DNA of 64,000 nt from Mycolicibacterium pulveris. Its GTDB lineage: Bacteria > Actinomycetota > Actinomycetes > Mycobacteriales > Mycobacteriaceae. A program made the position numbers and the translations under genes. Below are positions 37,400 to 57,318 of the stretch, in pieces. Every line of letters starts with the position of its first letter. Within the stretch, counting starts at the first letter, position 1. The notes beneath the pieces are model-generated. The model did not search any database. It was not told where the DNA came from and was given only the letters and a program-made list of their open reading frames with translations. The DNA lies in contig NZ_AP022599.1 in the NCBI RefSeq assembly GCF_010725725.1, positions 1,178,001-1,242,000 of the forward strand, read 5' to 3'.

Positions 37400-37428
37400 T
37401 CAGCTAATTCTCAAGAGGGGGGAACCCA

Positions 37429-37806: not shown

Positions 37807-37840
37807 GGACATCCACACCACAGTTTCGGAAACAATCTGA

Positions 37841-39694
37841 GTGCCCAACTACCCGCGGAACCCATTCAGGCGTGGGTCGAACGACTTCGACGACGATAAC
37901 CCAGAATCGGATAACGGTGACGTACATCGCCGTCGGTTGAACATTTTCAACCGACGTGGCGCGATAGTCGCTGGTCTGGTGCTGCTCGTTGTCCTGGCCT
38001 TCGGTTCCTGGCTTGCGTACGAAGCGGTTCAAGCAAAATCGAATCTGGAGCAGGCGCGGCAAGCCGTGCGCGAAGCGCGTGAGTCCTTACTCAAAGGGGA
38101 CTCCGACGCCACGTCACAGTGGGTCGACAAAGCCGAAGGGCACGCCAACAAGGCAAGGAACGCAACGCATTCACTACCGTGGAACATCTCAGCGGCCATC
38201 CCGTGGTTGGGAAGCCCGTTGAAGACAGGTCAACAGATCGCCGATGTCGTGCAGGCCTTGGCGGTGGACGTCATGCAACCATCGGCGGACGTCGCGGAGG
38301 CGCTGTCGCCGGACCGGCTTCTCGAAGGCGGGCGGGTTGACGTCCAGTTGCTTCGCGATTCGGCTCCGAAGCTGAACGAGATCTCCGCGGCAGCAGCAGA
38401 GCTGGAGGACCAGGCCAACGCGATCGGCGAGCCCACGTACTTTTCGGCGCTCGCCGATGCACGCACTCAACTCCAGGAGCAGTCAGCCAACGTCACCGGG
38501 CTACTCAGGTACACGGATCTGGCCGCGAAGCTCGCTCCCCCGATGATGGGTGCGGACGGACCGCGCAGTTACTTCATGGCGTTTCAGACCAACGCCGAGG
38601 CTCGCGGGACTGGCGGATTGCTCGGCGGCTTTGGCGTTTTGCGCTTCGACAATGGCAAGCCAACCGTCGACAACCTCGGGCCGAACACGGAACTGCATGG
38701 CGCATCCTCGTCGCTGAACCTTGGCCCGGAGTTCGCGCAACAGTACGGGTTCGCCAACCCGTTCACCGACTTCCGGAACAGCAACTTCAGCGCACACTTC
38801 CCGTACGCGGCCCAGATCTGGCGGTCGATGTGGGCTGAACAGTCAGGGATGACGGTCGATGGCGTGATCGCCATCGATCCGGTGGCCTTAAGCTACATTT
38901 TGGGCGCGGTCGGGCCGGTGACGATGCCGGACGGTGAGCGGATCACACAGGACAACGTTGTCGAATTAACCGAATCCACTGCCTACAGTCGGTTTCCCAC
39001 GGATCAGGTGGCCCGCAAGCAGTATCTCCAAGACATTGCCAGCGAGGTGGTGACCAAAGCGACTGGCGAGGTCAAGTCGCCGCGCAAACTGCTCGAAGCT
39101 CTCGGCAAGGCGGCCAGCGAAGGCCGTATCGCGGTGTGGAGCGCGTCTCCGGAGGAACAGGCACTCCTCGAAGAGACCCCGCTGGCGCATGTGATTCCCG
39201 ACGATCCTGCGCCGTATGCCCAGGTTGTGGTCAACAACCTGGGCGGTAACAAGATGGATTACTACTTGACGCGGCAGATTGAGTACGCTGCAGACGGGTG
39301 CGAAGGGGAAACCCGGAAAACCACGGTCACGGTGAATCTGTCGAACGAGGCACCCGACGGCCCGCTTCCTGATTACGTCGCTGGCTTCGCTGGCCTTGAA
39401 AACATCGCAAACAAGCCGCCTGCCGGCACGAATGTCGCGTCGGTTTCACTTGTCGCGACTCAGGGAGCCGACTTGGTGGGTGCGGTCGCCAATGGGCAAA
39501 AGGTGCCGATATTCACGGGCGTGGATCGCGGGCACCCCGTGTTCGAAGCGCAGATCGCGGTACCCAAAGGAGACTCTGTCGAACTGAAGTTCCTTCTCGA
39601 GGAACCAACGACCGCTGGTGAACCTCGCGTGCCGATCCAGCCGCTTGTGGATGAAGTCACGCCGGTGATCTCCGTTCCGGACTGTGAGGCATGA
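37841..39694 (+). CDS. DUF4012 domain membrane protein of the polysaccharide locus
   Basis: The protein has 617 residues from a GTG at 37841. A charged N-terminus is followed by one transmembrane helix (GAIVAGLVLLVVLAFGSWLAY, about residues 40-60), a coiled-coil stretch (NLEQARQAVREARESLLKGD), and a large extracytoplasmic DUF4012 domain (YFMAFQTNAEARGTGGLLGGFGVLRFDNG, DGVIAIDPVALSYILGAVGPV). DUF4012 proteins occur next to exopolysaccharide genes in actinobacteria. The domain is related in appearance to LytR-CpsA-Psr partners, but its activity is not established. A degenerate relic of a second DUF4012 gene follows (39897-40010). Confidence 0.85.
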   Translation: MPNYPRNPFRRGSNDFDDDNPESDNGDVHRRRLNIFNRRGAIVAGLVLLVVLAFGSWLAYEAVQAKSNLEQARQAVREARESLLKGDSDATSQWVDKAEGHANKARNATHSLPWNISAAIPWLGSPLKTGQQIADVVQALAVDVMQPSADVAEALSPDRLLEGGRVDVQLLRDSAPKLNEISAAAAELEDQANAIGEPTYFSALADARTQLQEQSANVTGLLRYTDLAAKLAPPMMGADGPRSYFMAFQTNAEARGTGGLLGGFGVLRFDNGKPTVDNLGPNTELHGASSSLNLGPEFAQQYGFANPFTDFRNSNFSAHFPYAAQIWRSMWAEQSGMTVDGVIAIDPVALSYILGAVGPVTMPDGERITQDNVVELTESTAYSRFPTDQVARKQYLQDIASEVVTKATGEVKSPRKLLEALGKAASEGRIAVWSASPEEQALLEETPLAHVIPDDPAPYAQVVVNNLGGNKMDYYLTRQIEYAADGCEGETRKTTVTVNLSNEAPDGPLPDYVAGFAGLENIANKPPAGTNVASVSLVATQGADLVGAVANGQKVPIFTGVDRGHPVFEAQIAVPKGDSVELKFLLEEPTTAGEPRVPIQPLVDEVTPVISVPDCEA

Positions 39695-39896
39695 GCTTTA
39701 AAATGGCTGCCAAGCACCCTCTCCTCGATGCTCTATTCCGACCGGACCTCGTGCCGCTGACCAGAGCGTTCGAAAAACGGCGATCGCTAATCGAATTCTT
39801 CCCTGGCTGGACAATCCGTCGGCAGTATCTTCAGTTTGATCTGCTCGCGGGGCACCACGGCCACCTGTCGCATCGCGATGTCGCCTCACCTTCAGT

Positions 39897-40010
39897 GCGA
39901 CACCCTATGCCAATCCGGTGGTCGGCGTACTCGGTGGAAACCACAACCCGCCCGCGAGGCGGGAGATCGAGTACTTTGCCGATGGGTGCGGCAACGAGGC
40001 GCGGAAATCA
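39897..40010 (+). pseudogene. Relic of a second DUF4012 gene
   Basis: One frame reads ATPYANPVVGVLGGNH then ARREIEYFADGCGNEARKST. This mirrors PAPYAQVVVNNLGGNK and TRQIEYAADGCEGETRKTT of the intact DUF4012 protein at 37841-39694. The flanking sequence is out of frame or unrelated, so only a fragment of an old duplicate remains. The gene-free stretch 39695-40122 contains nothing else I can identify; a short open frame starting at 39691 on the DUF4012 stop does not look like a real gene. Confidence 0.6.
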
Positions 40011-40122
40011 ACCAGCTTTCGACCAGCTAAACAACGACGTCACTGCCGGATCGTCGTAGTCCGAGTGTCCGGATTGGGCTATCGATGCATAGTATTAAGA
40101 CCAAGCTAATGAGGGGCCAGCG

Positions 40123-41568
40123 TTGACGATCCAAGACTTCGTGAAACTGCTGCGCACTCGTTGGCTCATCATCTTTGCCACCGTCGTCGTCGCAGTAGTG
40201 GGGGCTGTGGCAGTTAATCTGCTAACGACTCCGCTCTATGAGGCGTCGACGAGGCTCTTCGTGTCGACCTCATCAGGGGCAACGCTAGCCGACACGTATC
40301 AGGGAAATCGATTCTCACAGGAACGCGTGATTTCCTATACCGAGCTTCTCAAGGGAGAAACCCTGGCGCAGCGAACAATTGACAAGCTCGACCTCGACAT
40401 GGCGGCCGAGGAACTCCAAGACAACGTCAAGGCCAGTTCAAAACTCGACACAGTACTAATAAATGTGTCTGTTCTGGACGAATCGCCCGTCCGTGCGCGT
40501 GATATCGCCGACGCACTCTCCGACGAGTTCGTCGTTATGGTACGCGAATTGGAGACCCCGCCGGACGGAACCATGCCGAACGCCCGTGTCGTCGTAGAAC
40601 AACGGGCCTCAATCCCAGATGATCCGGTAACTCCCAAGACGACTCGGAATCTAGCAATCGGCCTTTTGCTCGGCTTGCTGTTAGGGGTTGGCCTTGCAGT
40701 ACTACGTGATGTACTGGACAACACCATTAAAGATCGAGAAAATCTTGAAGAAGTGACCGGTGTGGGCTTAGTCGGGAGTATTCCGCTTGATAAGGAACGC
40801 CGAAAGACGCCTGCGATCTCCTTCGAGAGCGACAACTCACTGATGGCCGAAGCCTTGCGGAAGCTTCGCACCAATTTGCAGTTCCTAGCGGTGGATAATC
40901 CGCCGCGTGTAATCGTTGTTACCAGCTCGATGCCCAGTGAAGGCAAATCGACTACCGCGATCAACATCGCACTAGCATTAGCAGAAGCCGAAAACGAAGT
41001 CGTCCTCGTCGAAGGCGATCTGCGGCGACCGAGGATACACAAATATCTGGACTTGGTCGGAACGGTTGGCTTTAGTTCAGTACTAGCAGGCCAAACTGAC
41101 CTTGAGGAATCGCTCCAAAAAACACGCTTTCCCCGACTGACTGCGCTGGCCTCAGGCGTGCTGCCGCCTAATCCGAGCGAATTACTCGGGTCAGAGACAG
41201 CTAAGAAAGTCTTAGACGAGCTTCGCGGTCGATTCGACTATGTCATCATCGATTCTTCCCCGCTACTTGCGGTCACAGATGCTGCGATTCTTGCGGCCAG
41301 CGCTGACGGCGTACTTATCATGGCACGTCACGCGCATACGAAACGTGACCAACTAGCGCACGCAGTCGGAAGTCTTCGAGATGTAGGTGCTCCATTACTT
41401 GGCGCTGTATTCACAATGACGCCTACTCGCGGCGCCTCAAGCTACAGTTACCGCTACTACGGGGAAACAACAACCCAATCCGCTTCCGAAAAGAGTGGCA
41501 TTTTCGGTCGTTTCCGTCGCAACCTCTCAGAGCATCGCCGCCTTGGTTCAGTGGGGCCTCGAGCATAA
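40123..41568 (+). CDS. Polysaccharide co-polymerase/tyrosine autokinase (Wzz plus BY-kinase)
   Basis: The protein has 481 residues from a TTG at 40123 behind GAGGGG. The Wzz chain-length domain has two membrane helices (about residues 14-35 and 176-195). The cytoplasmic BY-kinase has Walker A TSSMPSEGKSTT (267-278), Walker A' VVLVEGDLRRP (293-303; Glu where an Asp is usual) and Walker B YVIIDSSP (373-380). A C-terminal Tyr cluster SYSYRYYG serves autophosphorylation. It controls polymer length and export in Wzy-dependent capsules. The Wzb-like phosphatase at 56735 is its probable partner. Confidence 0.88.
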   Translation: MTIQDFVKLLRTRWLIIFATVVVAVVGAVAVNLLTTPLYEASTRLFVSTSSGATLADTYQGNRFSQERVISYTELLKGETLAQRTIDKLDLDMAAEELQDNVKASSKLDTVLINVSVLDESPVRARDIADALSDEFVVMVRELETPPDGTMPNARVVVEQRASIPDDPVTPKTTRNLAIGLLLGLLLGVGLAVLRDVLDNTIKDRENLEEVTGVGLVGSIPLDKERRKTPAISFESDNSLMAEALRKLRTNLQFLAVDNPPRVIVVTSSMPSEGKSTTAINIALALAEAENEVVLVEGDLRRPRIHKYLDLVGTVGFSSVLAGQTDLEESLQKTRFPRLTALASGVLPPNPSELLGSETAKKVLDELRGRFDYVIIDSSPLLAVTDAAILAASADGVLIMARHAHTKRDQLAHAVGSLRDVGAPLLGAVFTMTPTRGASSYSYRYYGETTTQSASEKSGIFGRFRRNLSEHRRLGSVGPRA

Positions 41569-42048
41569 ATGAGTTCTGGTCCGCCGCGAATGAGTTCTCG
41601 ATACCGTTCACGATCTGCGCGACCCCGGCATCGACTCGTAATGAGTTGTCTTAGGACTCAACGGGACCATCCGGTCTGCAGCCAGCGGTTCGGTGGAAGC
41701 ACCGCACAGAACGCTGACAAAGCAGTCCATGGCGCGGCAACATATGCGTTGGAGCTAGCAACTAAAGTTGGTTGGGATCATCCATCGATCGCACTCAAGC
41801 GGATACATCAGTGTTTCAGGTTCGCATTCGTGTCGGATCCTCGCGGGCGAGCAGTCCCCGCGTCAAGCCTCCGCCTGATTTTCCGGCTACGCCGGCCGTG
41901 TTACGACAACCGCAGCGACAGCCATCCGTGCACGCCCGTGCTCGGTTTACCTCGCACGCTGCCCGGTGAGGTAACGCGACCACCTTCCGAACTCGCCTCC
42001 CGGCACCCAGGCATATAACTCCGTAGATGAACCAAGTTGGAGCTTTTC
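41569..42048 (+). other. Gene-free stretch before the amidotransferase gene
   Basis: No convincing gene is present. ATGAGTT recurs three times near the left end (about 41569, 41590, 41641). The last 30 bases hold a TATAAC-like hexamer and the region before the ATG at 42049, so a promoter for the AsnB-like gene is plausible. Confidence 0.4.
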
Positions 42049-43587
42049 ATGTGCGGCCTATTCGCCACTAACGACCTCAGTACTCGCAATCGGCTTCCAG
42101 AAATTCTGCGCGCTAGGCTCGCCTTTCGCGGGCCCGATTGGCAGTCACCTGTCATCGAGCACAAAGGGTGGCTTTTATACCATGCTCGTCTGTCAATCAT
42201 TGCGCCGACGCCTGAATTTTCGCAGCCATACATCACGAAATCTGGCGGCGCGCTGCTGTTTAACGGCGAAATACTCAATTTTGCCACGCTCGCTAAACAA
42301 TATGGACTTACTAATTCCGGCTCAGACACCGATATACTGGCAAACCTCTTAGAGCTGCCCGGATTTGATCTCAATGCGCTTGAGGGGTTCTTCGCTTTCA
42401 TCTACCTCGACTCGAATGGCAAGATGACTCATTGTGCCCGAGATCGGTTTGGGGTCAAACCGTTGGTGTACGTCAAGTCGCAAAACAACCTGGCAATTTC
42501 TAGTGAAGCTTCGGTGCTGTCAGATCTATATAATCTTCCCCACAGTCAACGTGCGCTCGCAGAATATAAGGCTTTCCGCGCACCGATCTTTACAAGCTCA
42601 TATTTCGACGGCGTAGCCGAAGTCGTTCCAGGGACATGTTTGGTAAACGGCCCATATTTTGACACCCTCGACCACGTCACCGACGATTATCTGCCCGCTA
42701 ACGACGTACAAGATGCCCTAAGTGAGACCTTGCAATCCGCTGTGAGGTCTAGGTTAGTTTCAGACGTCCCTGTCGGACTTCTATTAAGCGGCGGTATTGA
42801 TAGTAATCTAATTCGCGCATATTCCCACAGGAAGTTTCAATGCTTCACCGGAGGTACTGAGAATGATTACGACGTAGAATATGCCGAATCCCTGGGGAGC
42901 GGCGCAGTACACATTGTGGACGTAAGTCGCCAGAAATTCCGCACGCGCTTCAGCGAAATGATTCAGCTAAGGAAAGAGCCGTTATCCGTTCCAAACGAGG
43001 TAATTCTGTCATTTCTAGCCGAACGCTGGCAGAAGAATGGTGGCCGTGTGTTACTTTCCGGTGAAGCAGCTGACGAGTTCTTCGGAGGCTACGATAGAAT
43101 CTTCTATTGGGCTGCAAATGCTGAACGTTTCTGCATAGACACCTTCCTAAATCTATACAGTTATGCTGACGAAAGATCAATCGCGGAAGACATCCGGGCT
43201 GATTTCGAACACTTCTTTAGAAGCTTGCCCGGCATCAGCCCTTTCGAATCCGTCCGTCAGTTCTTCTTAAAGAAGCATCTGCCCGTGCTATTTCGGAGAC
43301 TAGACTTTGCTCTAATGTATGCGGGAGTTGAAGGGCGTGAGCCGTTCGCACATTACGAGATGTTCAAACTCGCGATGCGCATCAAACCGAGTCAGTTATT
43401 CATCAATAAAATTGGTAAACGCCCACTACGGGAGTTGGCGGCCAAATGCTACGGTGACAAATTCGCCTTCGAACCGAAGGTCGGCTTCCCGATCGACGTT
43501 GGATCCATCTTTGGTTATGGGAAAACCGAGGACCGCATCTCAAACTACAAAGTGTGGCGCCAGGAGAATATGAGGCTGATCGCATGA
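42049..43587 (+). CDS. AsnB-like class II glutamine amidotransferase (asparagine synthase family)
   Basis: The protein has 512 residues. The ATG at 42049 is chosen because it places the N-terminal nucleophile Cys directly after Met (MCGLFA); a TTG 12 bases earlier would block it. The glutaminase domain contains RGPDWQS, LFNGEILNF and GSDTDILANL. The synthetase PP-loop is LLLSGGIDSNLI (247-252 region), with LSGEAADEFFGGYDR. In polysaccharide loci such enzymes amidate sugar or other carboxylates using Gln and ATP; glucuronate made by the UGDH in this locus is a possible substrate (inference). The stop overlaps the next gene's start (ATGA). Confidence 0.85.
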   Translation: MCGLFATNDLSTRNRLPEILRARLAFRGPDWQSPVIEHKGWLLYHARLSIIAPTPEFSQPYITKSGGALLFNGEILNFATLAKQYGLTNSGSDTDILANLLELPGFDLNALEGFFAFIYLDSNGKMTHCARDRFGVKPLVYVKSQNNLAISSEASVLSDLYNLPHSQRALAEYKAFRAPIFTSSYFDGVAEVVPGTCLVNGPYFDTLDHVTDDYLPANDVQDALSETLQSAVRSRLVSDVPVGLLLSGGIDSNLIRAYSHRKFQCFTGGTENDYDVEYAESLGSGAVHIVDVSRQKFRTRFSEMIQLRKEPLSVPNEVILSFLAERWQKNGGRVLLSGEAADEFFGGYDRIFYWAANAERFCIDTFLNLYSYADERSIAEDIRADFEHFFRSLPGISPFESVRQFFLKKHLPVLFRRLDFALMYAGVEGREPFAHYEMFKLAMRIKPSQLFINKIGKRPLRELAAKCYGDKFAFEPKVGFPIDVGSIFGYGKTEDRISNYKVWRQENMRLIA

Positions 43588-44006
43588 TAATCGGATACAC
43601 CACTGGAGTTTTCGACTTATTTCATATCGGACATGTCAACCTTCTCCGCAACGCGCGGTCCCTATGCGACAAGTTGATTGTGGGGGTCACAGTCGACGAA
43701 TTGGTCTCATACAAGGGCAAAAATCCAGTAATACCCTTCATGGAGCGAATCGAGGTCGTGCGCGCGTGCCGATATGTCGACGTCGCCATCCCACAACTGT
43801 CGATTGACAAAGTCGAGGCTGTCAACAAGTTGAATGCCAACCGTTTATTCGTAGGTGACGACTGGTACAAAACCGAACGATGGCAGGAAATGGAGGCAGA
43901 CCTGCAAACCTTGGGTTGCGATATCGTCTATCTCCCGTACACGCGTGGCGTTAGCAGCACTCTCATTAATGAGACACTCACGTCTCTACGTGCCGCTCAA
44001 GAATAG
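43584..44006 (+). CDS. Glycerol-3-phosphate cytidylyltransferase-like (TagD family)
   Basis: The 140-residue protein is close to the about 130 of TagD. The HxGH motif FDLFHIGHVNLLRNA and the C-terminal TRGVSSTLI (RTxGISTT-like) motif define the cytidylyltransferase family. KGKNPVIPFMERIEVVRACRYVD is the usual connecting region. The predicted reaction is CTP plus glycerol 3-phosphate to CDP-glycerol, feeding the TagF/TagB-like transferase at 49527. Other polyol- or sugar-phosphates are possible. It is coupled to the AsnB-like gene by a 4-base overlap. Confidence 0.85.
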   Translation: MIIGYTTGVFDLFHIGHVNLLRNARSLCDKLIVGVTVDELVSYKGKNPVIPFMERIEVVRACRYVDVAIPQLSIDKVEAVNKLNANRLFVGDDWYKTERWQEMEADLQTLGCDIVYLPYTRGVSSTLINETLTSLRAAQE

Positions 44007-44196
44007 TTCCGCTGATTCCCGCGGATGTTTACGACGACAAAAGGCAGACCTATATGTGCCGCCGGACAAATAGCCGTTACTCCCCCACGCCACAAGCCAG
44101 AGTGTGGGCGCAGGTACCGGGGCAACGCGAGTCGGCCAAATATTGCTTCGGTGTAGTAGCCCTTAAACTAGCCGGCCACGAAAGGGAGTTGACGAT

Positions 44197-44979
44197 ATGA
44201 AGTTTAGTGAGGTCGAGCGCCTGGTCAAAGGCATTCCATTCATCGATAGAGTCAACGCTGAGGCGCTCTATAGCTTTATTATCGGACAAAATCTGAAAGA
44301 CTGCCTGGAGCTGGGGTTCGCTCACGGTGTCGCGAGTTGCTTCATGGCTGCAGCTCTCGATGAGCTGGGGGGCGGTCGATTAGTTTCGGTGGATATTGAA
44401 TCGGCGCGGGAGTGGCAAAAGCCGAGCATCGAGGAGCTTCTCCAGAGGGTGGGTTTACCACAATACGTGGAGATCCACCGCGAGCGAACGGGATATAACT
44501 GGTATCTTCAGAAGCTTATCGCTCAACGCTCAGAAAATGATCTCAATATCTGCGAACCGATTTTCGATCTCTGCATTATTGATGGTCCGAAGAACTGGAC
44601 GATAGATAGCAGTGCATTCTTCCTTGTTGACAAGCTTCTTAAGCCGGGGGGTTGGATAATTTTCGATGATTATTACTGGAGCTATGCCAGTGCGGATCGA
44701 ACGAGAGATGCAACCGATGGTATCGTGCACCGAGATTTATCAGACTCTGAGCGGACGACGCCCCATATCAGGCAGATTTTCAACCTTCTTGTCATGCAAC
44801 ATCCTGACTACAGTAATTTCCGGATACAAGAAGATTCTGGGTGGGCTTGGGCTCAGAAGACTGATGCCCCACTAAGTACAAAGAGAGTCAGTTATGAGCT
44901 TTCCTACAGTTCACGCGACTATCTGTCGAGAGCTCTCCACAAAGCGCGGCTTGCCCTCACGCGCCAACGGGCCGGGTGA
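44197..44979 (+). CDS. Class I SAM-dependent methyltransferase
   Basis: The protein has 260 residues, with AAAGGGAG 13 bp before the ATG. SAM-binding motif I is LKDCLELGFAHGVASCFMAAAL, motif II acid is LVSVDIES, and FDLCIIDGPKNW and KPGGWIIFDDYYW follow, as in Methyltransf_24-type enzymes. Within this locus it probably methylates a sugar or its substituent. The acceptor is unknown. It converges on the Wzy-like gene with a 6-bp gap. Confidence 0.8.
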   Translation: MKFSEVERLVKGIPFIDRVNAEALYSFIIGQNLKDCLELGFAHGVASCFMAAALDELGGGRLVSVDIESAREWQKPSIEELLQRVGLPQYVEIHRERTGYNWYLQKLIAQRSENDLNICEPIFDLCIIDGPKNWTIDSSAFFLVDKLLKPGGWIIFDDYYWSYASADRTRDATDGIVHRDLSDSERTTPHIRQIFNLLVMQHPDYSNFRIQEDSGWAWAQKTDAPLSTKRVSYELSYSSRDYLSRALHKARLALTRQRAG

Positions 44980-44985
44980 ATGAAG

Positions 44986-46323
44986 TTACGCTTTTGAATT
45001 GAGAGCTTGCCGCATGGTTCCAGAATCGTTGCGGCTCAGGTCGCGTCGGACGTCATTACGCTCCGACCGCGTCACATTTCTTTCTATTGATATTGCTATA
45101 CCGATTGCACACCACGCAGGTACGCTCACGAGCGTCGCATTCTGAAACATTAGCACTTCGGTGCCGTTGTGAATGACGAACATCAGAAACAGCGCGGAAC
45201 CGAAGCGACCTGCTGCTGTGTTAGCTCGGGAGAGGATGCCCCAGAGGTAAAGCAGGAATACAAGTAGAACGCTCAGGCCTAAAATACCGACCTGCAGATA
45301 TACCTGGAGATAGTAGTTATGGGCAGAAAGTTGGGTGGTGAGGAAGTCTCTCGGTAAGGCAGCTGCGCCTAATCCAAAGAGTGGGTTTTCTTTGGCGGCG
45401 CGCAATATATAGGGCCAAAGAAAGTCCCGACCCGAGTTTGCCCGGTGGCCGGATAACTCCATTATTTTCGCAGATAAGCTTGCTGCTAGCGGGGAAGTGT
45501 TTATGTTCAAAAAGAACCAGAGTGTGGCACCGATGGTCGCGACAGACGCGAAGATCCCGATAAACATATAGGTGCGACTGCGCAGTTTCATCGAACAAAC
45601 GAAAGCTATTAAGAAAAGTGCTGAGTAGACAATGAGGGAACGGACATTATATATAAGTGCTAGCGAACCACTGAACGCAAAGAATGCTAGGGCAACCGCC
45701 CACGCAGTTCTTGGTGAAGTGTCAGCGCGCCGAAGAATACAAACGAGAGCGACTGCAGATGCGTAAACCATTGCACTGGCTGTGGCATTCTTGGGTAATT
45801 CCGCGACCGCGATAGCCAATAGATCGACGGTCACGAGTGTAAATAGCAAAACCCTGAACCAGGTGAATGACAAAAATGCCGCGCCATACATTACGAACGC
45901 TAAAAGGACTGTAGCGGTTGATGCAACGGCTACAGTATGCTCCAGGCCTCGGCTACGATTATATGTAAACGCAGCACTCAGTGCATACAGACCAACGAAT
46001 ACCAATACGAATGTGGTCGGCCAGATTATTTGGTCGATCCGCGCAAGCAATATCGGTGTGAGGGTCGCGGTGAAAGCTACCAGAAGCCATCCGCGGGAAT
46101 CGCTGAGCGTCGCCGCAACAGCTGGGTATGAGATAACGAGCAATGCTAACGGCGCGACCACGGCGGCTACTCGAGAGTAGCGCTTCTCGAGGGAAGTGAG
46201 ATGCTGCGAGTTGTCCAAGGAATGAGGGTTGCGCTTCTTTAATTCGCTCGCCTTAGGTCGCACATCCTCCCGCAGTCGATTCGATCCCTGATTGCGGCCC
46301 TGACCCGTCATTGGGCGAGGCAC
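44986..46323 (-). CDS. O-antigen polymerase/ligase (Wzy/WaaL-like)
   Basis: The protein has 445 residues with about ten to twelve hydrophobic helices. The family signature lies in the large loop: SGRDFLWPYILRAAKENPLFGLGAAALP ... SAHNYYLQVYLQVGILGL, as in the O-antigen ligase/polymerase family. It would join lipid-linked repeat units on the outer face of the membrane. A polar N-terminal extension of about 48 residues precedes the first helix, and a later start is possible (ATG at 46311). It is transcribed against its neighbours. It could be a ligase instead, but no second polymerase is seen. Confidence 0.82.
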   Translation of the reverse strand: MPRPMTGQGRNQGSNRLREDVRPKASELKKRNPHSLDNSQHLTSLEKRYSRVAAVVAPLALLVISYPAVAATLSDSRGWLLVAFTATLTPILLARIDQIIWPTTFVLVFVGLYALSAAFTYNRSRGLEHTVAVASTATVLLAFVMYGAAFLSFTWFRVLLFTLVTVDLLAIAVAELPKNATASAMVYASAVALVCILRRADTSPRTAWAVALAFFAFSGSLALIYNVRSLIVYSALFLIAFVCSMKLRSRTYMFIGIFASVATIGATLWFFLNINTSPLAASLSAKIMELSGHRANSGRDFLWPYILRAAKENPLFGLGAAALPRDFLTTQLSAHNYYLQVYLQVGILGLSVLLVFLLYLWGILSRANTAAGRFGSALFLMFVIHNGTEVLMFQNATLVSVPAWCAIGIAISIERNVTRSERNDVRRDLSRNDSGTMRQALNSKA

Positions 46324-49254: not shown

Positions 49255-49526
49255 CGGTTAACTCCTGAAATCCTTATTCCCTGCCGCCGAACTGAAATTG
49301 TCTGAACACCCGCGAGCGCGCCGGGAGCGGACATCCAATTGTGGTCACGCACTTGGCGCGGAAGCCCGACCTTATCCCACTCAAGCCCATTCGGCTCACA
49401 ACAGCCATCAGCTTGCCCGCGTTCGGGGTGCCCGCGCAGATTGACTTTCCCAGCCGAGCGCATCACGAATGGGGGTCCGTTGGTTTGGCGTTTAATTTCG
49501 CGCGCAACGACCTTCATGGTCCTGCG

Positions 49527-50732
49527 TTAGGGCTGCGAAACGTTCCGCGCGCTATGTCTATCCACTACGCCTCGAGCACATAGCTCTTCGAAGATTCGCG
49601 CAGCGACGGCGCCGTCGGCAGCTGCGAGTCCGAGGTGGTCGGCAACTTCAAGGCGCTTCGCCTGTGAAAGCTTGCCGCTCGACTGCACGTCGGAAACATA
49701 GAGCTCAACATCCCGTGCATTCCTGATCCGAGGGCCAGGTAACCAGCTCATTGCATCAGGCGGGTCAAAGCCCCGATTCGAGCTGTACGCTTCTTCATCC
49801 GGCACGATGAAAGCGATCGGTCGATCCAGTGACAGATAGTCAATCCACACGCTTGAATAGTCAGTTAACAAGCCACTGGATAGGCCTATCAATTGGTATA
49901 GAAGCAGGCCCGCTGACAGCAGATCGTCGTTTGTGACTGTGATTGCCCCAGGGATGTGATGGCTATCAGCATCGCTTGGGTGCGGTTTAACGACGGTCTG
50001 AATTCCTGCGCGAGATAGACCGGCGATCGTCATTTGTGCGAGATCATTAGTATCTTGAATGGCCGCAGACATATCGGCATAGCCTCCATTAGAATCGGCT
50101 AACCGAACACTACGGCGAAATGTGGGCATCCAGATCACGAATGGTCGGCTAGGGTCAATTCCGAGTGGCAGAGCTTGACTCCGATTGCCTTGGCCGAATT
50201 GGTCGATCCGCGGACAGCCGGTAACGAGCAATCCATCGTCGGGAAGGCGACACCTCTCGGCCATGATTAACCCAATCTTCTTGGTTCCAGCGATAAGAAA
50301 ATCTGAATGTACCAGCGGTCGACCCCGCGAGTCTGTCAAGACTCCGGCCTTCAGCGGATCTCCGTGCCACAGATTGACCAAGGTCTTCCGTGGCACGCGC
50401 CGCGGACATCCATAGACTCCGTGCGTGAACATCGCAACTTCGGCCGTTACAAATGCCCTCAGACCTGTTAGTGACCGATGCGCAATCGCGTTTAACCTTT
50501 CGCCCTCGATATTAGCGGATCGCAAGACGCGCCTCGCCACTTCGGGGTCAGCAACCAAGAAGTAAACCTGCCCCGGATATCGCGCGGTGATAGCTCTCAC
50601 CATCTCTATCGCATTTCCCTCAGAGTCGGGGTATCCGAAAATGGCGATATGCGGTCGCCTGGGTGTGACCAACATGAGGAGCGATACCGCCCAGTGCTTT
50701 ATCAGCCGTGCAACTTTCCGTTTCCAGGACAA
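49527..50732 (-). CDS. CDP-glycerol glycerophosphotransferase-like (TagF/TagB family)
   Basis: The protein has 401 residues. Family motifs are clear: IAIFGYPDSEGNAIEMVRAI near the N-terminus, LVNLWHGDPLKAGVL (NxWHGxPLK), IAGTKKIGLIMAERCRL, VVKPHPSDAD and LLTDYSSVWIDYLSLDRPIAFIVPDEEAY (TDYSSVxxDY). These enzymes transfer glycerol phosphate from CDP-glycerol during teichoic-acid and related polymer synthesis. Together with the TagD-like gene this predicts glycerol-phosphate decoration of the polysaccharide. It is a single-domain version without the extra N-terminal part of poly-glycerophosphate polymerases, so a single-transfer (TagB-like) activity is as likely as polymerisation. The 272 bp between it and the flippase hold no clear gene. 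Confidence 0.85.
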   Translation of the reverse strand: MSWKRKVARLIKHWAVSLLMLVTPRRPHIAIFGYPDSEGNAIEMVRAITARYPGQVYFLVADPEVARRVLRSANIEGERLNAIAHRSLTGLRAFVTAEVAMFTHGVYGCPRRVPRKTLVNLWHGDPLKAGVLTDSRGRPLVHSDFLIAGTKKIGLIMAERCRLPDDGLLVTGCPRIDQFGQGNRSQALPLGIDPSRPFVIWMPTFRRSVRLADSNGGYADMSAAIQDTNDLAQMTIAGLSRAGIQTVVKPHPSDADSHHIPGAITVTNDDLLSAGLLLYQLIGLSSGLLTDYSSVWIDYLSLDRPIAFIVPDEEAYSSNRGFDPPDAMSWLPGPRIRNARDVELYVSDVQSSGKLSQAKRLEVADHLGLAAADGAVAARIFEELCARGVVDRHSARNVSQP

Positions 50733-51226
50733 ATAGCTTCAGGCTCCGATCATCCGCCAGGTTTTCTCATCACACTACGACAGGTTTTCTCATCACACTA
50801 CGAACGAGATTATCAGGCGGCGGGGCTAACCGAAGCACAGAGGAACCGCTTTAAGCTCCCGGCTCTCCGCGGTTTCTTCGATGGCGTGCCATTATAGGCT
50901 GGGGTCTCGTGTGTCACCCCGCGTGAGGATTCGATCATGCCTCCACTCCCCTGCCAACGATCCAACATCACGGTGACCGGTGGCTAACGCAAGCGATTCT
51001 GGCGACATTCGATACGATCGCTCCGGTGAAGCCGTTTTCGCGTTACAATCAGTTTATCCACAGCAGCGAACCAGTTTGCCGTTTCCCGCGGTTCAAACGT
51101 GAAGCTCGATAGTCGACAAATTCGATGGCCACTCATAGCTTCGACTCTTTCTGGCGTCAGCTATCGAAGCCGTAAGCTTCGAGCGGGTAACCCGCTTCGG
51201 ATCAAGGCGATGGGAGATGGACTACA
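50733..51226. other. Intergenic stretch between divergent TagF-like and GT2 genes
   Basis: This is 494 bp without a convincing gene. It contains a perfect tandem 23-bp repeat (50758-50803) and must carry the promoters of both flanking genes. GGGAGATGG at 51211 is the probable ribosome site of the GT2 gene. Confidence 0.5.
50758..50803. repeat. Perfect tandem 23-bp repeat
   Basis: CAGGTTTTCTCATCACACTA followed by CGA occurs twice with no spacer, about 26 bp upstream of the TagF-like start codon. It may be a regulator-binding direct repeat or a replication-slippage product. Confidence 0.85.
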
Positions 51227-52108
51227 TTGAAACCATTAGTGTCGGTGATCACACCTACGTTCAACTGTCGCAACTACGTCGAGGAAGCAATCGCTTCGGT
51301 GCAGTCTCAGACTTACGATAACTGGGAGCTAGTAATAGTTGATGACTGCTCGGAAGATCATACTTTTGAGCTAGTACAGCGTGTCGCGCAGAATGAGCCC
51401 AGAATCCGGCTGTTTCGTCACGAAATCCGCAAAGGCGCAGGGCCTGCTCGCACCCGAGCGCTAGAGGAAGCGAAGGGACGCTTCATCGCATATCTCGATG
51501 CGGATGATATCTGGTATCCGCGTAAGCTCGAGGTACAAGTTAATTTTATGATCGAAAATTGCTGTGGCTTCTCTTGCACATCGTATGAGGTTATAAGTGA
51601 CAGCGGCAAGCGGATGAATAAGTCGGTTCATATGTTACCGAGAGCTGGCTACCTTGATTATCTAACAAATAATCTCCTGCAGACGGTGGGGATAATGATC
51701 GATACGGATGTCGTGCCCAAAGACCTGCTGCGCATGCCGCCTTTGGAGCGCCGTCAGGACGTAGCTACTTGGCTGCAAATACTGAAAGCTGGCCATATTA
51801 ACTACGGCTTACCAGAAGTGTTGGCCCAGTATCGGAGGTCCAAGAATTCACTTTCCAGCAACAAGTTTAAAGCTGTACGGGGAATCTGGACTCTATATCG
51901 CGACGTCGAAGAGCTTCCATTGCTCTTTAGCTACTATTGTTTTGCTCGCTACGCCGTATTGGCCGTCTGGAAACGATTGTATCTCAATCGGATGCGTCGT
52001 CTCGATAGCCCTGCTTCGTCGACGATTCCGTCAGTAAGCGCCGCTGCGTCCGAATACCACCTGAGGCGTTTGAGCGATGATCCGCAGGTCCCACATCAGA
52101 GACCATGA
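51227..52108 (+). CDS. Family 2 glycosyltransferase
   Basis: The protein has 293 residues from a TTG at 51227; an in-frame GTG 12 bases later is an alternative. The GT2 domain is unmistakable: LVSVITPTFNCRNYVEEAIASVQSQTYDNWELVIVDDCSEDHT, GAGPARTRALEEAKGRFIAYLDADDIWYPRKLE (DxD), and ERRQDVATWLQIL (ED-like acceptor motif). It is predicted to act at the inner membrane face in repeat-unit assembly. Its last 78 bases overlap the end of the convergent sugar-transferase gene; the final about 26 residues are therefore probably a read-through tail without structural role. Confidence 0.85.
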   Translation: MKPLVSVITPTFNCRNYVEEAIASVQSQTYDNWELVIVDDCSEDHTFELVQRVAQNEPRIRLFRHEIRKGAGPARTRALEEAKGRFIAYLDADDIWYPRKLEVQVNFMIENCCGFSCTSYEVISDSGKRMNKSVHMLPRAGYLDYLTNNLLQTVGIMIDTDVVPKDLLRMPPLERRQDVATWLQILKAGHINYGLPEVLAQYRRSKNSLSSNKFKAVRGIWTLYRDVEELPLLFSYYCFARYAVLAVWKRLYLNRMRRLDSPASSTIPSVSAAASEYHLRRLSDDPQVPHQRP

Positions 52109-53500
52109 GCGGACGTATACGGAATCGAGATGCTGAAGGTCCGCGTAAGTGAGGTCGCTACGGCCGCAGACCTGCCAGAGCCCTGTTATTCCCGGCTTGA
52201 CATCGAGGCGAGCCAGCGCGGCGCCGTCAATACGAGCGGACTCCTCGACGGGTAATGGCCGTGGCCCGACCAAGGACATTTCTCCGCGAACCACGTTGAT
52301 AAGTTGAGGAAGTTCATCAAGACTCGTCTTGCGGATGAACGCACCGACGCGAGTAACACGTGGGTCCTCCGCCATCTTAAACAACGGTCCGTCTACTTCG
52401 TTTCGTTGCGCGACTGTGTCGCGCCGCTGCCATGCGTCTGCGGTCATGGAGCGGAACTTAAAAATCCGGAATGGTTTGCCCCTGAGGCCGCCTCGCTCCT
52501 GGCGGAAGAAAACGGGACCTGGGCTGTCCAGCTTGATAGCCAACGCAATGACAAGCAGGATGGGCGAAGCCGCAACAAGGGCAAGCGTTGCAAGGGTTAC
52601 ATCCATGCACCGCTTCGCAATTCGTTCGCTGATTGCGAGCGATAATATCGGCAAATGCATCAAAGTCAGACCGTGCAGCTCTTCTGCCTCGCTGCGCCAA
52701 TTATGCAATTCAAAATAGCGGGGAATCTCTGACACGGGTACTTGGCCCTGGAGCTGGCGCAGCGCTTCGAGCACAATGGCATCGCTTGTGTTTGGAAAGG
52801 CGACGATGACTCGATCAACTTTGTTTGCGGTACATACCAAAGACAGCTCAGAAAGACCTCCCAGCACGTGTGTGCCCGGGGCGACGTTGTCATCTACGTG
52901 TCCGACAACCACGGTGTCTGGGCACCGCCGCAGTCTCGACGTCAGTCGCTCGCTAATGGGTCCGGTACCGACCACCAATATGCGAGTGACCGTAGGGTCG
53001 AACATCCGGACCACCATTCGCCGGCCGAACGGAACTAGAGCGACAGCGGGCAAGGTCATCGCCACCGCTGCTGTTAGCGTCATTCGACCGCTTTCGAGAA
53101 AAAAGGCGCCAGCGGCGAGCGTGAGCAAGGCAGCGGTCGGTACGCAACGCGCTACGACCATGGGTCTCCACCATCCGCTCGGTCGCAACCGGGAGGCTGG
53201 TCGACGATACAACCCGTGCAGATGTAGCGCGGCAGCCATTGAGATCACGGCAAGAACGATCTCTCGAAGGCCAAGATCTCCCGCCCGCTCCGGACTGACC
53301 TGACTTAGAGCTACCGCCCCGACGAGCGCGGAGGTTGTCAGGGTTATTAAATCGGAAAATTGCAAGAGATACCGGTGCCGACGACCGAACCTGGGGGCCT
53401 CCGGACATGTCTTGACGTCACCGTCAACTCGCTGCCGTGGTGACACGAAATTCGGGTCCGCGATCCCACCGACCCGCGAAGGTGTTGCCTCGATTGTCAT
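52031..53500 (-). CDS. Initiating polyprenyl-phosphate sugar-1-phosphate transferase (WbaP/CpsE type)
   Basis: The protein has 489 residues from the ATG at 53500, which follows GGGGAAAG; an ATG 12 bases upstream is possible. About four N-terminal membrane helices are followed by a CoA-binding-like domain (TRILVVGTGPISERLTSRLRRCPDTVVVGHVDD). The C-terminal sugar-transferase domain has KRCMDVTLATLALVAASPILLVIALAIKLDSPGPVFFRQERGG, KFRSM, RKTSLDELPQLINVVRGEMSLVGPRPLP and KPGITGLWQVCGRSDLTY. It starts repeat-unit synthesis by placing a sugar phosphate on undecaprenyl phosphate. Confidence 0.92.
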   Translation of the reverse strand: MTIEATPSRVGGIADPNFVSPRQRVDGDVKTCPEAPRFGRRHRYLLQFSDLITLTTSALVGAVALSQVSPERAGDLGLREIVLAVISMAAALHLHGLYRRPASRLRPSGWWRPMVVARCVPTAALLTLAAGAFFLESGRMTLTAAVAMTLPAVALVPFGRRMVVRMFDPTVTRILVVGTGPISERLTSRLRRCPDTVVVGHVDDNVAPGTHVLGGLSELSLVCTANKVDRVIVAFPNTSDAIVLEALRQLQGQVPVSEIPRYFELHNWRSEAEELHGLTLMHLPILSLAISERIAKRCMDVTLATLALVAASPILLVIALAIKLDSPGPVFFRQERGGLRGKPFRIFKFRSMTADAWQRRDTVAQRNEVDGPLFKMAEDPRVTRVGAFIRKTSLDELPQLINVVRGEMSLVGPRPLPVEESARIDGAALARLDVKPGITGLWQVCGRSDLTYADLQHLDSVYVRSWSLMWDLRIIAQTPQVVFGRSGAY

Positions 53501-53526
53501 ATCTTTCCCCAATGATTCATACGCAA

Positions 53527-55848
53527 CTACCAGCCAAAGCCGACCAGTCTGAGACCAGATCCAACAAAGTCAGCTTCCGGTAGGCAATTGCGGCCGTCCA
53601 ATACGAGGTTTCCTCGCATCACACGCCGCAGCCCAGTTGGATCAATGTCCCGAAACTCCGGCCACTCTGTGACTACTACCACCGCATCCGCTCGGTCAGC
53701 GGCATCGTATACATCAGGCGTAAGCCGTACACCCGCGTATTCGTCGGGCAGAACTTTAACCACTGGATCAAATGCCGAAACCGCTGCACCGGCCGCCAAC
53801 AGCCTGCGTGCAATATCTAATGCCGGAGCGTCACGCAGATCGTCCGTGCCGGGTTTGAAGGTCAATCCAAACAGTGCGATTCTACGTCCCTTGAGAATAT
53901 GTAACTCGCGCTGGAGTTTTCGTATTGCACTCGCTCGCTGCAGCTTATTGATTTCCACTGTCGATTGCAGCATCGAGGACGTATACCCATATTCTTGGCC
54001 CGTCGAAATCAGCGCAGCAACGTCCTTACCGAAGCATGAACCACCCCATCCGACGCCGGGGTTTAAGAAGGCGGCGCCAACACGATGGTCGGCTCCGATG
54101 GCGGGAAGAACCTCACGGGCGTCGGCACCAAAAAGCTCGCAGAGTTGCGCCATCTCATTCGCGAAGCTGATCTTCGTCGCCAAGAATGCATTGGCGGCGT
54201 ACTTGATCATCTCCGCAGATGCCAGTTCGGTAGTAATCAACAATGGCGTGATGCCCTGCCGACCTCGGTCAAATGATTGATCAAGCACCGGCCGGTATAG
54301 CTCTGCTACCCGGTTGACATCAGGCTGGGCTCCGCCGAGCACAATCCGATCTGGGTATAGAAAATCTTCGATTGCGCATCCCTCGCGAAGGAATTCAGGA
54401 TTAGAAACGACGTGAAAAGATAGATCGCGGTCATTTAAAGCGTCCTCAAGGATGGTGCGAGTCCAATTGCCAGAGCCAACCGGGACGGTTGATTTGTTGA
54501 CTATCACCGCGTCCGCGCGTAGATATGGAGCTAATGCTTGAATCGCGCTCTCGAGTTGGGTGAGGTCTGGCGACCCATCCTGACCTGGCGGAGTTCCTAC
54601 GCAGAGGAAAACAAACTCTGCGTCCGATAATGCCTCAGCGTAGCTATCAGTGAACCGCAGCCGACCGGTCGACAAAGTCGACTGGAGTAGCTCGGGAAGA
54701 TTCGGTTCGTGGAACGGTGTTTGACCATTGTTGAGTTGGCCGACCCGCGCCAAATCCGTGTCAAGACCACAAACGGTGTGGCCCAAGGACGCCAAGCAGG
54801 TCGACGTGACCGCGCCGACATAACCGGTGCCGATGACAGCAACACTCCGGCGAGAGAACGCTCGCCTCTGCTGACCAATGCGAAGCAGCCCGACATCTGA
54901 TCTTGATTTTTCGGTGTCTACATCGCGGAACCACGCAATGGTCTCCAGCAAACCTTCACGAACATCGCGCTTCGGTTCCCAATGCAGTTCGTTACGCGCG
55001 AGTGTGATGTCCGGTCGACGCTGCGATGGATCGTCCTGTGGGCGGTCAACAAACTCGACGGGAGCTTCAGATCCAGCAAGTTCACGGATCAGGTTCGCTA
55101 ACTCCAGAACCGTCATTTCATGCGGGTTACCGATATTGACTGGCCCTGCCAGGCCGGAGAACAACAGCCGCAATGCTCCTTCGACCAAGTCGTCGACATG
55201 GCATACAGACCGTGTCTGATTCCCATCGCCGTGAACAGTGAGGGGCATACCAGCAAGTGCCTGGGTGATGAAGGTCGGAATCGCCCGACCGTCGTTGGGC
55301 CGCATCCGAGGGCCGTAGGTGTTGAAAATACGCATAATGGCGGTATCGACACCGTGCTTCTGCCGATATGACGATGTCAGTGCCTCGGCAAAGCGCTTCG
55401 CCTCGTCGTAACATGCGCGCGGACCGACTGGATTTACATTTCCCCAGTAACTTTCGGGCTGGGGATGCACAAGAGGGTCACCGTACGTTTCCGAGGTAGA
55501 CGCCAACAGGTAACGGGCACCCTTTTCTTTCGCGAGACCAAGCGTGTGCAGCGTCCCAAGAGAACCAGCCTTCATCGTCTCGATGGGAAGCTGCGCATAG
55601 TCCACTGGTGACGCAGGGGACGCGAAATGCAGCACGTAATCAACAGGACCGGGTATTGAAATGTAGTCGCTGACATCGACTTTCATCAGTCGAAAACCAT
55701 CGTGGGCCTGAAGGTGTGCTACGTTCTCCGGCGCGCCCGTGACAAAATTGTCGAGGCATATCACATCGATTTCATGTGCGAGCAGTCGTTCTGCGAGGTG
55801 GGAGCCGACGAATCCCGCTCCCCCCGTTATCACTGCCCGGCGCCGCAT
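53527..55848 (-). CDS. Bifunctional UDP-glucuronate decarboxylase / UDP-glucose 6-dehydrogenase fusion
   Basis: One 773-residue frame, starting at an ATG behind AGGGGGGAAGT, joins two enzymes. Residues 1-310 are an SDR UDP-xylose synthase: NAD loop GGAGFVGSH (9-17), T118 and E120 in [11 protein letters not shown]147-x3-K151, [16 protein letters not shown], and [17 protein letters not shown] with R277. Residues 330-773 are a UDP-glucose dehydrogenase: [47 protein letters not shown] and catalytic C605 in [11 protein letters not shown] linker of about 20 residues separates them. The product could turn UDP-glucose into UDP-glucuronate and then UDP-xylose in one protein. It sits next to the initiating transferase. 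Confidence 0.93.
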
Positions 55849-56210
55849 ACTTCCCCCCTAGATCCCCTCGGTCCCCATGTGGGTCCCTATGTGCTGGTAG
55901 GTGCGACACTGCCAGCACGTACGGATGCGGATTCCCTTCCGCACCGTAAAGTAGCCGTCCCCATAACGGCCTTGTCGCTAAGACCCTCCGTTGCAGGTCA
56001 CGGATTCCTGCCTGCCCGACGGTAACAAGAGTCTGTCCTGCCTGCCTCAACTAGACAAACAGCATATTAACTGAAGCTGGCAAGCAAATCAGGGGTTTCC
56101 CTATGTTTTTGCCAGGTGTCCAGCCCCTGACTGGGCCTCCAGCACCGAACACCGCTGTTTGCGGTAGGCGAAAGGCTGAAACGGCTGGAACGACGCTACT
56201 TGGCACCGGC
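55849..56210. other. Gene-free stretch right of the fusion gene
   Basis: No gene is supported. The AGGGGGGAAGT ribosome site of the leftward fusion gene lies at 55851-55861, and its promoter is expected here. AACAGCATATTAACT near 56060 is an AT-rich segment. Confidence 0.4.
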
Positions 56211-56483
56211 TCACCCTCGGACGCACCCCTGAAGCTTGGCGAAGAATTCGGTTAGCTGTGCGCCCGTGCATGGGCCATTCTTACAGCCAACGTTGATATC
56301 TACGGCGGTCGCCAAGACGGCATCCTCGGAGACGACCTTGTTGCCATTGCCCGATGGCGTCAGCAACCTTTGCCGGACTTCGGTCGATTCGTTGGCCGCC
56401 CGGTCGTGTTCACTACGTTCGAAATAGGCATGGTGCCACCGAAGAATGCCGAGGGCGAAGAGCCGCTTCCGCTGGAACCGAAT
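56211..56483 (-). pseudogene. Cryptic short frame, possible 5'-truncated gene
   Basis: A leftward frame of about 90 codons ends at a TGA at 56213-56211 and begins after an in-frame TGA near 56484. It has no ATG, and no start could be fixed. It reads as protein-like text: LFALGILRWHHAYFERSEHDRAANES, VVSEDAVLATAVDINVGCKNGPC and TEFFAKLQGCVRG. I do not recognise the family. It is either a decayed gene or a small protein with an unusual start or an upstream frameshift. The rest of 56484-56734 shows no other gene. Confidence 0.35.
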
Positions 56484-56734
56484 TCACGGATGTGGAACCG
56501 GTCAGCAATACTCAGCGACTGGGTCTCAGGAAGACCGAACGGGCTAAGGACGTTCGACACCGGTACGGCGCACCCTCCGTGCCGGCGCGCCACCCTTTCA
56601 AGCCGCGCGCGGCGGCTAGCTGTCGTTACGCGGCATACTGCAACAACGCTAGCTGACTGGGAGTATCTTACCGGAGCGATGTCCTATCCTATGGTCGGCT
56701 ACCGACACCTCGTTGCCGCCGACAAGGAGTTGTT

Positions 56735-57253
56735 CTGCGCGTACTATTCGTCTGCACTGGAAACATCTGCCGATCACCCATGGCGGAGAGGCTTGTCAAC
56801 GCCTATACCACGCGACTAGGGATCCCTACCCTCAGGGCATCCAGCGCCGGAATTCGCGCTGTAATCGGTCACCCGATCCAACCTGACGCAGCTCTGGTCC
56901 TTCAGCAGCTTGGCGGCGAAACGAATGACTTCGCCGCGCGCCAACTTTCGTCCAAGATCGCTTCAGAGGCCGATCTCGTACTAACCATGACAAGAGCACA
57001 CCGGGATGCAGTTCTGGAACTCGCCCCGCGCCAGCTCCATCGAACATTCACGTTGGGCGTCGCTTCCCAACTTGTGTCGGAACTCGGCGCGCAAACAATC
57101 GGCGACCTCGCCGTGCTCCGTCCGCAATTGTCTGGCGAGGACCAGTTCGATATCCCTGACCCGATCGGCCAGTCGGCCGACTTCCATGCGATGGTTGGTT
57201 CACAAATCGCCAGCTTCCTGCCACCGATAATCGAGTTGTTGCAGAGTGAATAA
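56735..57253 (+). CDS. Low-molecular-weight protein tyrosine phosphatase (Wzb-like), apparent CTG start
   Basis: The protein has 172 residues if it starts at the CTG at 56735, five bases after AAGGAG (56724-56729). This gives RVLFVCTGNICRSPMAERL at the N-terminus, the exact beginning of this family with the CX5R(S) loop (C7, C12, R13). The catalytic Asp loop is in FDIPDPIGQ. The first ATG (56780) would remove the active site. No in-frame ATG, GTG or TTG lies close upstream. It presumably dephosphorylates the BY-kinase at 40123 and so regulates polymer length and export. Confidence 0.85.
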   Translation: MRVLFVCTGNICRSPMAERLVNAYTTRLGIPTLRASSAGIRAVIGHPIQPDAALVLQQLGGETNDFAARQLSSKIASEADLVLTMTRAHRDAVLELAPRQLHRTFTLGVASQLVSELGAQTIGDLAVLRPQLSGEDQFDIPDPIGQSADFHAMVGSQIASFLPPIIELLQSE

Positions 57254-57318
57254 CTCGTTCGATCCCATATCGCGGGTCTTAGCAACCACCATCACAAGGG
57301 GCCAGATCGGCTCAACTA

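Follow-up and report, generated by a model that had tools for sequence, protein, structure and literature searches.

A candidate Wzx/Wzy-dependent surface polysaccharide locus lies in the stretch of Mycolicibacterium pulveris DNA analysed here, a window of 64,000 nt which corresponds to positions 1178001-1242000 of a single 5,484,749-base contig; positions below are in window coordinates, and features lie on the forward strand unless the reverse strand is named. According to translation and family scans of the open reading frames (ORFs) of the window, the gene order begins with a small secreted protein in triplicate, a DUF4012 protein, a Wzz-kinase, an amidotransferase, a cytidylyltransferase, a methyltransferase and a Wzy protein, and continues with P0009, a Wzx flippase, a TagB/F-like transferase, a GT2 glycosyltransferase, an initiating transferase, a fusion of UDP-glucuronate decarboxylase and UDP-glucose dehydrogenase (UXS-UGD) and a tyrosine phosphatase. 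The GC content of 2-kb segments is 0.50-0.58 across 40-56 kb and 0.60-0.73 elsewhere in the window. A first-pass annotation had placed such a locus at 37841..57253, and each gene class that it named there (initiating transferase, flippase, Wzy-like protein, Wzz/BY-kinase, phosphatase, nucleotide-sugar and modification genes) was recovered by the family scans. The head begins earlier, with the small secreted proteins at 36004-37806, and neither these nor the DUF4012 protein nor the CDP-alcohol phosphotransferase-like protein (49527-50732) had been included; the cytidylyltransferase (43554-44006) was at most covered as a nucleotide-sugar or modification gene. Three further ORFs (39691-40059, 41569-42018 and 56370-56819) have no Pfam match and are probably not genes.

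The initiating polyprenyl-phosphate sugar-phosphate transferase of WbaP/WcaJ type (52031..53512, reverse strand) scores 219.7 bits with Bac_transf and 364.3 with EPS_sugtrans (cut-off 295.6), which places it among polyprenyl-phosphate initiating transferases; the cut-offs of the WcaJ and WbaP models are not reached, and WbaP structures match it at E 7e-46. The Wzx flippase (47965..49254) is recognised by Polysacc_synt_3 at 34.4 bits (cut-off 23) if the full frame is taken, against only 22.2 bits with the shorter ORF, and at the chosen hydropathy threshold it has 9 hydrophobic stretches, below typical Wzx. The Wzy-type polymerase/ligase (44986..46323, reverse strand) exceeds the Wzy_C cut-off (40.2 bits against 31.7) and has 11 hydrophobic stretches, but the Wzy_C family includes O-antigen ligases. 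In the kinase (40123..41568) a Wzz/polysaccharide co-polymerase domain (36.1 bits, cut-off 25.5) is fused to a BY-kinase (eps_fam 171.1, cut-off 108), so that Wzz and tyrosine autokinase form one chain, and a low-molecular-weight tyrosine phosphatase (56735..57253; LMWPc 56.2 bits) stands in the same locus as its presumable partner. The nearest solved sequence to the kinase is the CapA1/CapB1 kinase fusion (E 8e-41), the BceF and Wzc kinases being also among the closest; it carries a GKST sequence, which we take to be the Walker motif, a presumed IIDSSP motif and a tyrosine-rich tail, SYSYRYYG. As to the two glycosyltransferases of the first-pass annotation, the GT2 enzyme (51227..52108; Glycos_transf_2 128.4 bits) has its Pfam domain, while P0009 (46651..47511) is a putative glycosyltransferase of an unnamed family, with no Pfam domain. 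At least 1279 relatives of P0009 were found, many in Mycolicibacterium, and the invariant DDD columns of this family suggest a glycosyltransferase; in a profile search of the PDB no match reached significance, KfiA and heparosan synthase B being hit at E 1-1.7.

The distribution of the locus was followed through its kinase in 198 same-genus genomes, one per species, a carrier being defined by a kinase match of at least 58% identity, with matches of 55% or less excluded and the split or partial genes in three genomes (G041, G121, G179) counted. An orthologous kinase is present in 57 of the 198 genomes, M. pulveris included, and any match in the remainder is more distant. Carriers of the kinase known by name are Mycolicibacterium sp. 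CH28, M. aurum and M. chlorophenolicum; a one-off acquisition by the M. pulveris strain alone is refuted by these carriers and by the loci compared below. Bac_transf occurs in all 57 carriers and Wzy_C in 56 (54 above cut-off). Within 50 kb of the kinase, Wzy_C is found in at least 39 carriers, Bac_transf in at least 40 and either of them in at least 49, and the chance expectation for such proximity is about 3% per gene (arithmetic from some 2 matches per 6 Mb). The suggestion of the first-pass annotation that a polymer of this kind would be new for the genus holds only within the reach of our limited literature search, in which no paper describing a comparable locus in mycobacteria was listed; the locus itself, with 57 carriers, is not special to the M. 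pulveris genome.

Comparison of these loci separates their ends from their centre. The window genes were searched by tblastn against 40 loci and three named ones, and the kinase was found in 43 of 43 (62-77% identity) and DUF4012 in 38 (57-75%). None of the 43 gave a match to the amidotransferase, methyltransferase, Wzy or TagB/F gene, and the cytidylyltransferase, Wzx, P0009 and GT2 genes gave scattered, mostly weak matches. When the ORFs of 28 loci (986 in all, defined by their length and by codon-position GC) were clustered at 40% identity, the kinase was present in 28 of 28 loci (by selection), DUF4012 in 27 and the phosphatase in 26, or in all 28 by its motif; the initiating transferase fell into two clusters, type 1 in 18 loci and type 2 in 11, with either or both in 25. 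Centre and right flank could be compared in 24 of these loci, four (G056, G067, G136, G140) being excluded for having no recognised right end. A relative at 40% identity is missing from the 28 loci for 204 of 334 centre ORFs, compared with 74 of 273 ORFs of the right flank, and the GC is 0.588 in the centre against 0.660 in the flank, the centre being lower in 24 of 24 loci (in G066 by just 0.002). Glycosyltransferases, epimerases and methyltransferases are the commonest centre families, Polysacc_synt occurring in 5 and Wzy_C in 4, in a scan that covered 111 of 161 listed centre ORFs in 9 of 14 loci. Conserved ends around a type-specific centre are the pattern of capsule-type loci, and here the serotype-type arrangement holds between species.

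The same counts bear on the nature of the Wzy_C protein. Pfam describes Wzy_C as O-antigen ligase, the family covers both activities, and mycobacteria make lipooligosaccharides; the protein might then be a ligase adding a short oligosaccharide to lipid or protein, and the product a lipooligosaccharide-like glycolipid or a glycoprotein. We consider this very improbable, as a Wzz-tyrosine kinase in every one of the 28 loci, even if by selection, and a phosphatase clustered in nearly all of them fit the chain-length control of a polymer.

The chromosomal site is also largely shared. In M. pulveris mmaA-type genes (CMAS family, mycolic-acid cyclopropane synthase) lie on one flank at 26.3-28.2 kb, and on the other, at 70.0-74.3 kb, are rplA (L1), rplK (L11), nusG, a gene that we take to be secE, and had (dehydratase) genes, their families confirmed by scan. 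Of the 27 other loci, 18 have mmaA and/or rplA in the examined stretch, 6 have purK and GtrA, and 3 have neither, so that there is mainly one chromosomal site plus a second. In 20 non-carriers, chosen among 141 as single-contig genomes, mmaA follows rplA in every case, by 73 bases (0.07 kb) to 14.1 kb, and by no more than 2.2 kb in 15 of them; at none of the 20 sites did the examined stretch hold anything above 45% identity to the kinase, DUF4012, the phosphatase, the initiating transferase or the fusion. Nucleotide similarity (blastn) to two of these non-carriers, L248 and L249, stops at 35,026/35,045 and returns at 69,983, which leaves the stretch 35046..64000, and on to 69982 outside the window, without any match of 150 bp or more in these two. 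The ends follow the chromosome in part: in Mantel tests against rplA identities (12 genomes each) DUF4012 gives r 0.37 (P 0.005) and the phosphatase r 0.54 (P 0.0005). A plasmid origin was considered and rejected, there being no megablast match in the plasmid collection and the window lying inside a 5.48 Mb single contig.

Several neighbouring features are recorded here as observations in their own right. Beside the locus, at 58963-63795, is a gene for a protein of 1610 aa in which beta-propeller and bacterial Ig/cadherin-like repeats are numerous. At 4613-6855 two adjacent ORFs, presumably of ABC ATPases, have predicted proteins that are near-identical at their starts. A second kinase-Bac_transf-Wzy_C locus is found in the M. 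pulveris genome at 804001-824000, at a purE-purK-GtrA site, with an acyltransferase, a glycosyltransferase and four secretory-lipase-family genes; the kinases of the two loci share 35% identity.

A further conserved property concerns translation starts. The phosphatase is read from CTG 56735, behind an AAGGAG, which makes the catalytic cysteine residue 7 and the first methionine residue 16. No in-frame ATG, GTG or TTG precedes that cysteine in M. pulveris, and ATG 56780 falls after the catalytic loop, so the start is placed at CTG 56735 and not at ATG 56780. The homologous first codon in 32 distinct mycobacterial loci (the 28 combined ones with L098, L105, L107 and L118) is CTG in 25, ATG in 5, GTG in one and TTG in one, and a Shine-Dalgarno-like match, laxly defined, lies within bases -16 to -4 in all 32; in 16 of the 25 CTG cases there is no upstream canonical start before a stop. 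CTG makes up 27% of the leucine codons inside the phosphatase genes, and 25 of 25 as ordinary leucine would have P ~5e-15, less extreme since the sequences are related. Outside the mycobacteria the position holds ATG in 7 Rhodococcus loci with the motif and GGA in a Phycicoccus locus, where the start must consequently lie elsewhere. The phosphatase CTG initiation is thereby supported by comparison across loci. For the kinase, the start could be read by motif in 17 of the 28 loci and is TTG in 13. In the flippase no ATG, GTG or TTG retains the first helix, and CTG 47965, again behind AAGGAG, is the likely start in M. pulveris. CUG is a poor start codon, and weak initiation may hold the phosphatase level low.

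Two genes of the M. pulveris locus, Wzx and the phosphatase, are in this way without a canonical start, which might be taken as a sign that the GC-poor, probably foreign island is degraded or silent and makes nothing. We regard this as highly improbable: the reading frames of the identified enzymes run uninterrupted through most of the respective family models, and a phosphatase CTG kept at the same position in most mycobacterial loci, with a Shine-Dalgarno-like match in each, is conserved and not decay.

The supply genes give some hints about the product. The UXS-UGD fusion (53527..55848, reverse strand; Epimerase and UDPG_MGDP_dh domains) is matched by UXS1 structures on residues 2-309 (E 5e-104) and by a sugar dehydrogenase on 335-756, and would supply UDP-glucuronate and UDP-xylose. 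Full-length relatives occur in 12 of the 198 genomes, its own included, the other 11 at 77-86% identity, and its ORF cluster in the 28-locus comparison consists of 8 fusions and 5 shorter proteins. The asparagine-synthase-like glutamine amidotransferase (42037..43587; Asn_synthase 151.4 bits, GATase_7 72 bits), whose likely start is ATG 42049 with a cysteine directly after it, is a candidate uronic-acid amidating enzyme, and a methyltransferase (44197..44979; Methyltransf_24, 55.5 bits) could modify the product further. The cytidylyltransferase of TagD/ethanolamine-phosphate type (43554..44006; CTP_transf_like 73 bits) has as its best solved relative an ethanolamine-phosphate cytidylyltransferase (E 7e-25), then a glycerol-3-phosphate cytidylyltransferase. 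It could provide a CDP-alcohol, of glycerol or ethanolamine type, to the CDP-glycerol glycerophosphotransferase-like protein of TagB/TagF type (49527..50732, reverse strand), whose relatives are found in M. phlei (58%) and Agromyces (50-53%).

These last two proteins raise the alternative of a teichoic-acid-like poly(polyol phosphate) wall polymer, of which they would form the core while the remaining genes decorate it. It is favoured by the PF04464 score of the TagB/F-like protein (110.6 bits), by its single PDB sequence match, a solved TagF-like capsule polymerase (E 1.3e-5), and by the presence of a TagD-like cytidylyltransferase in the locus. The curated teichoic acid equivalog cut-offs are missed, by far for TarF (25.2 of 550 bits) and TarB (21.6 of 500) and also for TagD by the cytidylyltransferase (83.2 of 165.4), on which ground a canonical teichoic acid pathway was rejected, and the locus has a WbaP-type initiating transferase together with Wzx and Wzy families. 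PF04464 occurs in only 2 of the 198 genomes, the second a weak partial match, against 57 with the kinase, so the TagB/F-like protein is rather a type-specific addition, and we consider the wall polymer quite improbable.

At the head of the locus stand two families of unassigned function. The small secreted protein occurs in tandem copies of 127 aa (36004..36387), 125 aa (36609..36986) and 125 aa (37429..37806), with a signal-peptide-like start and a conserved cysteine pair and PYG motif near the C-terminus; the repeats share 94.7-96.8% DNA identity, copies 2 and 3 are identical in protein sequence, and the third, scanned against Pfam, belongs to no family there. Its stop is 35 bp ahead of the DUF4012 gene (37841..39694; PF13196 159.2 bits). 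A genome-wide search with a profile built from ten kinase-neighbouring members matched 55 of the 198 genomes, 48 of them among the 57 kinase carriers (Fisher P 4e-29). In 41 carriers the match lies on the same strand as the kinase, at most 8 kb upstream and usually at 2.0-2.7 kb, which is just ahead of DUF4012; 26 of these score at least 70 bits and 15 are weak (24-43 bits), most covering the N-terminal part only. Seven non-carriers match as well, four with at least 72 bits (G160, G123, G196, G044).

The DUF4012 protein has two hydrophobic stretches, at 41 and 342, of which the N-terminal one is taken as a membrane helix and the second as buried, with the rest outside. Of 246 genomes of the phylum, 79 have the family, while 14 control genomes all lack it; named relatives come from M. 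elephantis, M. pulveris, M. holsaticum, M. rutilum, M. phlei and M. arabiense. In streptococcal cps loci an LCP gene stands first; here an LCP profile found no such gene in the examined stretches of the 28 loci, and three elsewhere in the M. pulveris genome. Profile comparison of DUF4012 with LCP (hhalign) is weak, with a probability of 0.8-8% and P 0.004-0.043, nearly equalled by the best decoy (P 0.044); the raw score, 25.4, exceeds that of each of the 32 decoy families, of which the best reaches 22.8, and the alignment is collinear and spans the LCP 'DALGGV' and 'R..RQQ' stretches. A DUF4012 profile search of the PDB gave nothing significant. Given so weak a similarity, an LCP-like attachment or assembly factor, or ligase, is only our guess.

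Taking these data together, we propose that this is very probably a serotype-like, horizontally exchanged Wzx/Wzy-dependent surface polysaccharide locus in a mycobacterial form, its product being predicted from the genes. The lipid-linked, externally polymerised heteropolysaccharide suggested in the first-pass annotation gains support from the gene set with its kinase/phosphatase pair, situated next to mmaA-type genes. For the catalytic steps, the sugar composition, the roles of DUF4012 and the small protein and the formation of a capsule, we infer the following course. The initiating transferase would load the first sugar phosphate onto a polyprenyl carrier, and the unit would be extended by the two glycosyltransferases and the TagB/F-like protein, with UDP-xylose or UDP-glucuronate from UXS-UGD and a CDP-activated alcohol from the cytidylyltransferase as probable substrates. 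The repeat unit may be modified by the amidotransferase and the methyltransferase, flipped by Wzx and polymerised by the Wzy protein. Should this chemistry hold, the polymer would contain xylose and/or glucuronic acid, the latter perhaps amidated, and an alcohol in phosphodiester linkage. Chain length would be set by the Wzz-kinase via its tyrosine-rich tail, the phosphatase opposing the kinase, and DUF4012, perhaps with the small secreted protein, may attach or organise the polymer outside the membrane.

Several observations weigh against this proposal. The Wzx and Wzy assignments rest on modest scores, and Wzy_C covers ligases too. A flippase-family match close to the kinase, sought with a single Pfam model, was obtained in no more than 22 of the 57 carriers, which means that the model misses many or that flippases are absent there. 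The kinase match crosses one stop codon in five carriers (G018, G034, G035, G142, G179), and the two CTG-started genes could point to low expression or, with less likelihood, to decay. The arrangement of the ends has its exceptions: G066 is without DUF4012 in the examined stretch, and DUF4012 is displaced and inverted in G144 and G056. In the combined G144 locus (L104 and L154) it is present in two weak pieces before the kinase (2689-3399) and as an intact inverted copy on the far side (30140-32083). Finally, for kinase identity the Mantel tests gave r 0.12 (P 0.16, 13 genomes) with rplA and r 0.15 (P 0.13, 27 genomes) with DUF4012; as it tracks neither, the head is not one vertically inherited block, and inheritance of this kind was rejected. 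Chromosome-tracking ends with a foreign centre would be expected from recombination in the ends, and the kinase result opposes the simple version of such exchange.

Known systems offer partial parallels. In Bifidobacterium longum 105-A, according to the part of the report consulted, deletion of the priming gene of the capsular and exopolysaccharide (CPS/EPS) cluster removes the capsule layer while an altered exopolysaccharide is still secreted (PMC5412050). That cluster, as far as this excerpt goes, has the priming transferase, DUF4012 and wzz in a row, followed by glycosyltransferases, polymerase and flippase; it belongs to a distant actinobacterium, and neither a fused UXS-UGD nor a small secreted protein was seen in the excerpt (PMC5412050). 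The mycobacterial locus differs in that its centre varies with type and that a single chromosomal site holds it in most cases. In the related mycolate genus Rhodococcus, the REQ40580-780 region of R. equi is described, in the portion of the source at hand, as a horizontally acquired extracellular polysaccharide region (PMC2947987). Twenty other Rhodococcus loci, R. equi not being included, have the same kinase family (56-66% identity), with a phosphatase match nearby in 12; unlike the mycobacterial loci, their stretches, some of them short, gave no match to the DUF4012 protein of the window in tblastn (0 of 20), and the phosphatase of the 7 loci with the motif starts with ATG, where the mycobacterial loci mostly have CTG. 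Pneumococcal and group B streptococcal cps loci share with ours a fixed site, conserved regulatory end genes including kinase and phosphatase, and a type-specific centre (see also the LCP review PMC7831098). In contrast to them, the mycobacterial kinase and Wzz are one protein, and DUF4012 takes the head position in loci whose 28 examined stretches held no LCP (CpsA) gene. The kind of locus is known from Wzx/Wzy capsule loci, and its site-fixed, type-variable mycobacterial form with a head module and a CTG-started phosphatase is new within the literature searched.

We may suggest, tentatively and with rather less than even confidence in the whole, that a variable, serotype-like capsule is made via Wzx/Wzy in more than a quarter of the mycobacterial species sampled, a route which our searches did not find described in the genus, that the head is a module of its own in which a small secreted cysteine protein stands with DUF4012, the latter a distant LCP-like ligase joining the polymer to the mycolate envelope, and that the kinase/phosphatase balance is set by the weak, conserved CUG. 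The phosphatase would present a natural case of conserved CTG initiation, and the locus gives a handle on the two function-unassigned families, that of the small secreted protein and DUF4012. The usual view of mycobacterial surface polysaccharides is of a fixed set made up of arabinogalactan, lipoarabinomannan and alpha-glucan. If our reading of a polymorphic locus at a fixed site is true, many mycobacteria would carry exchangeable capsule types, with consequences for phage receptors, for recognition by antibodies and lectins, and for biofilms and colony form.

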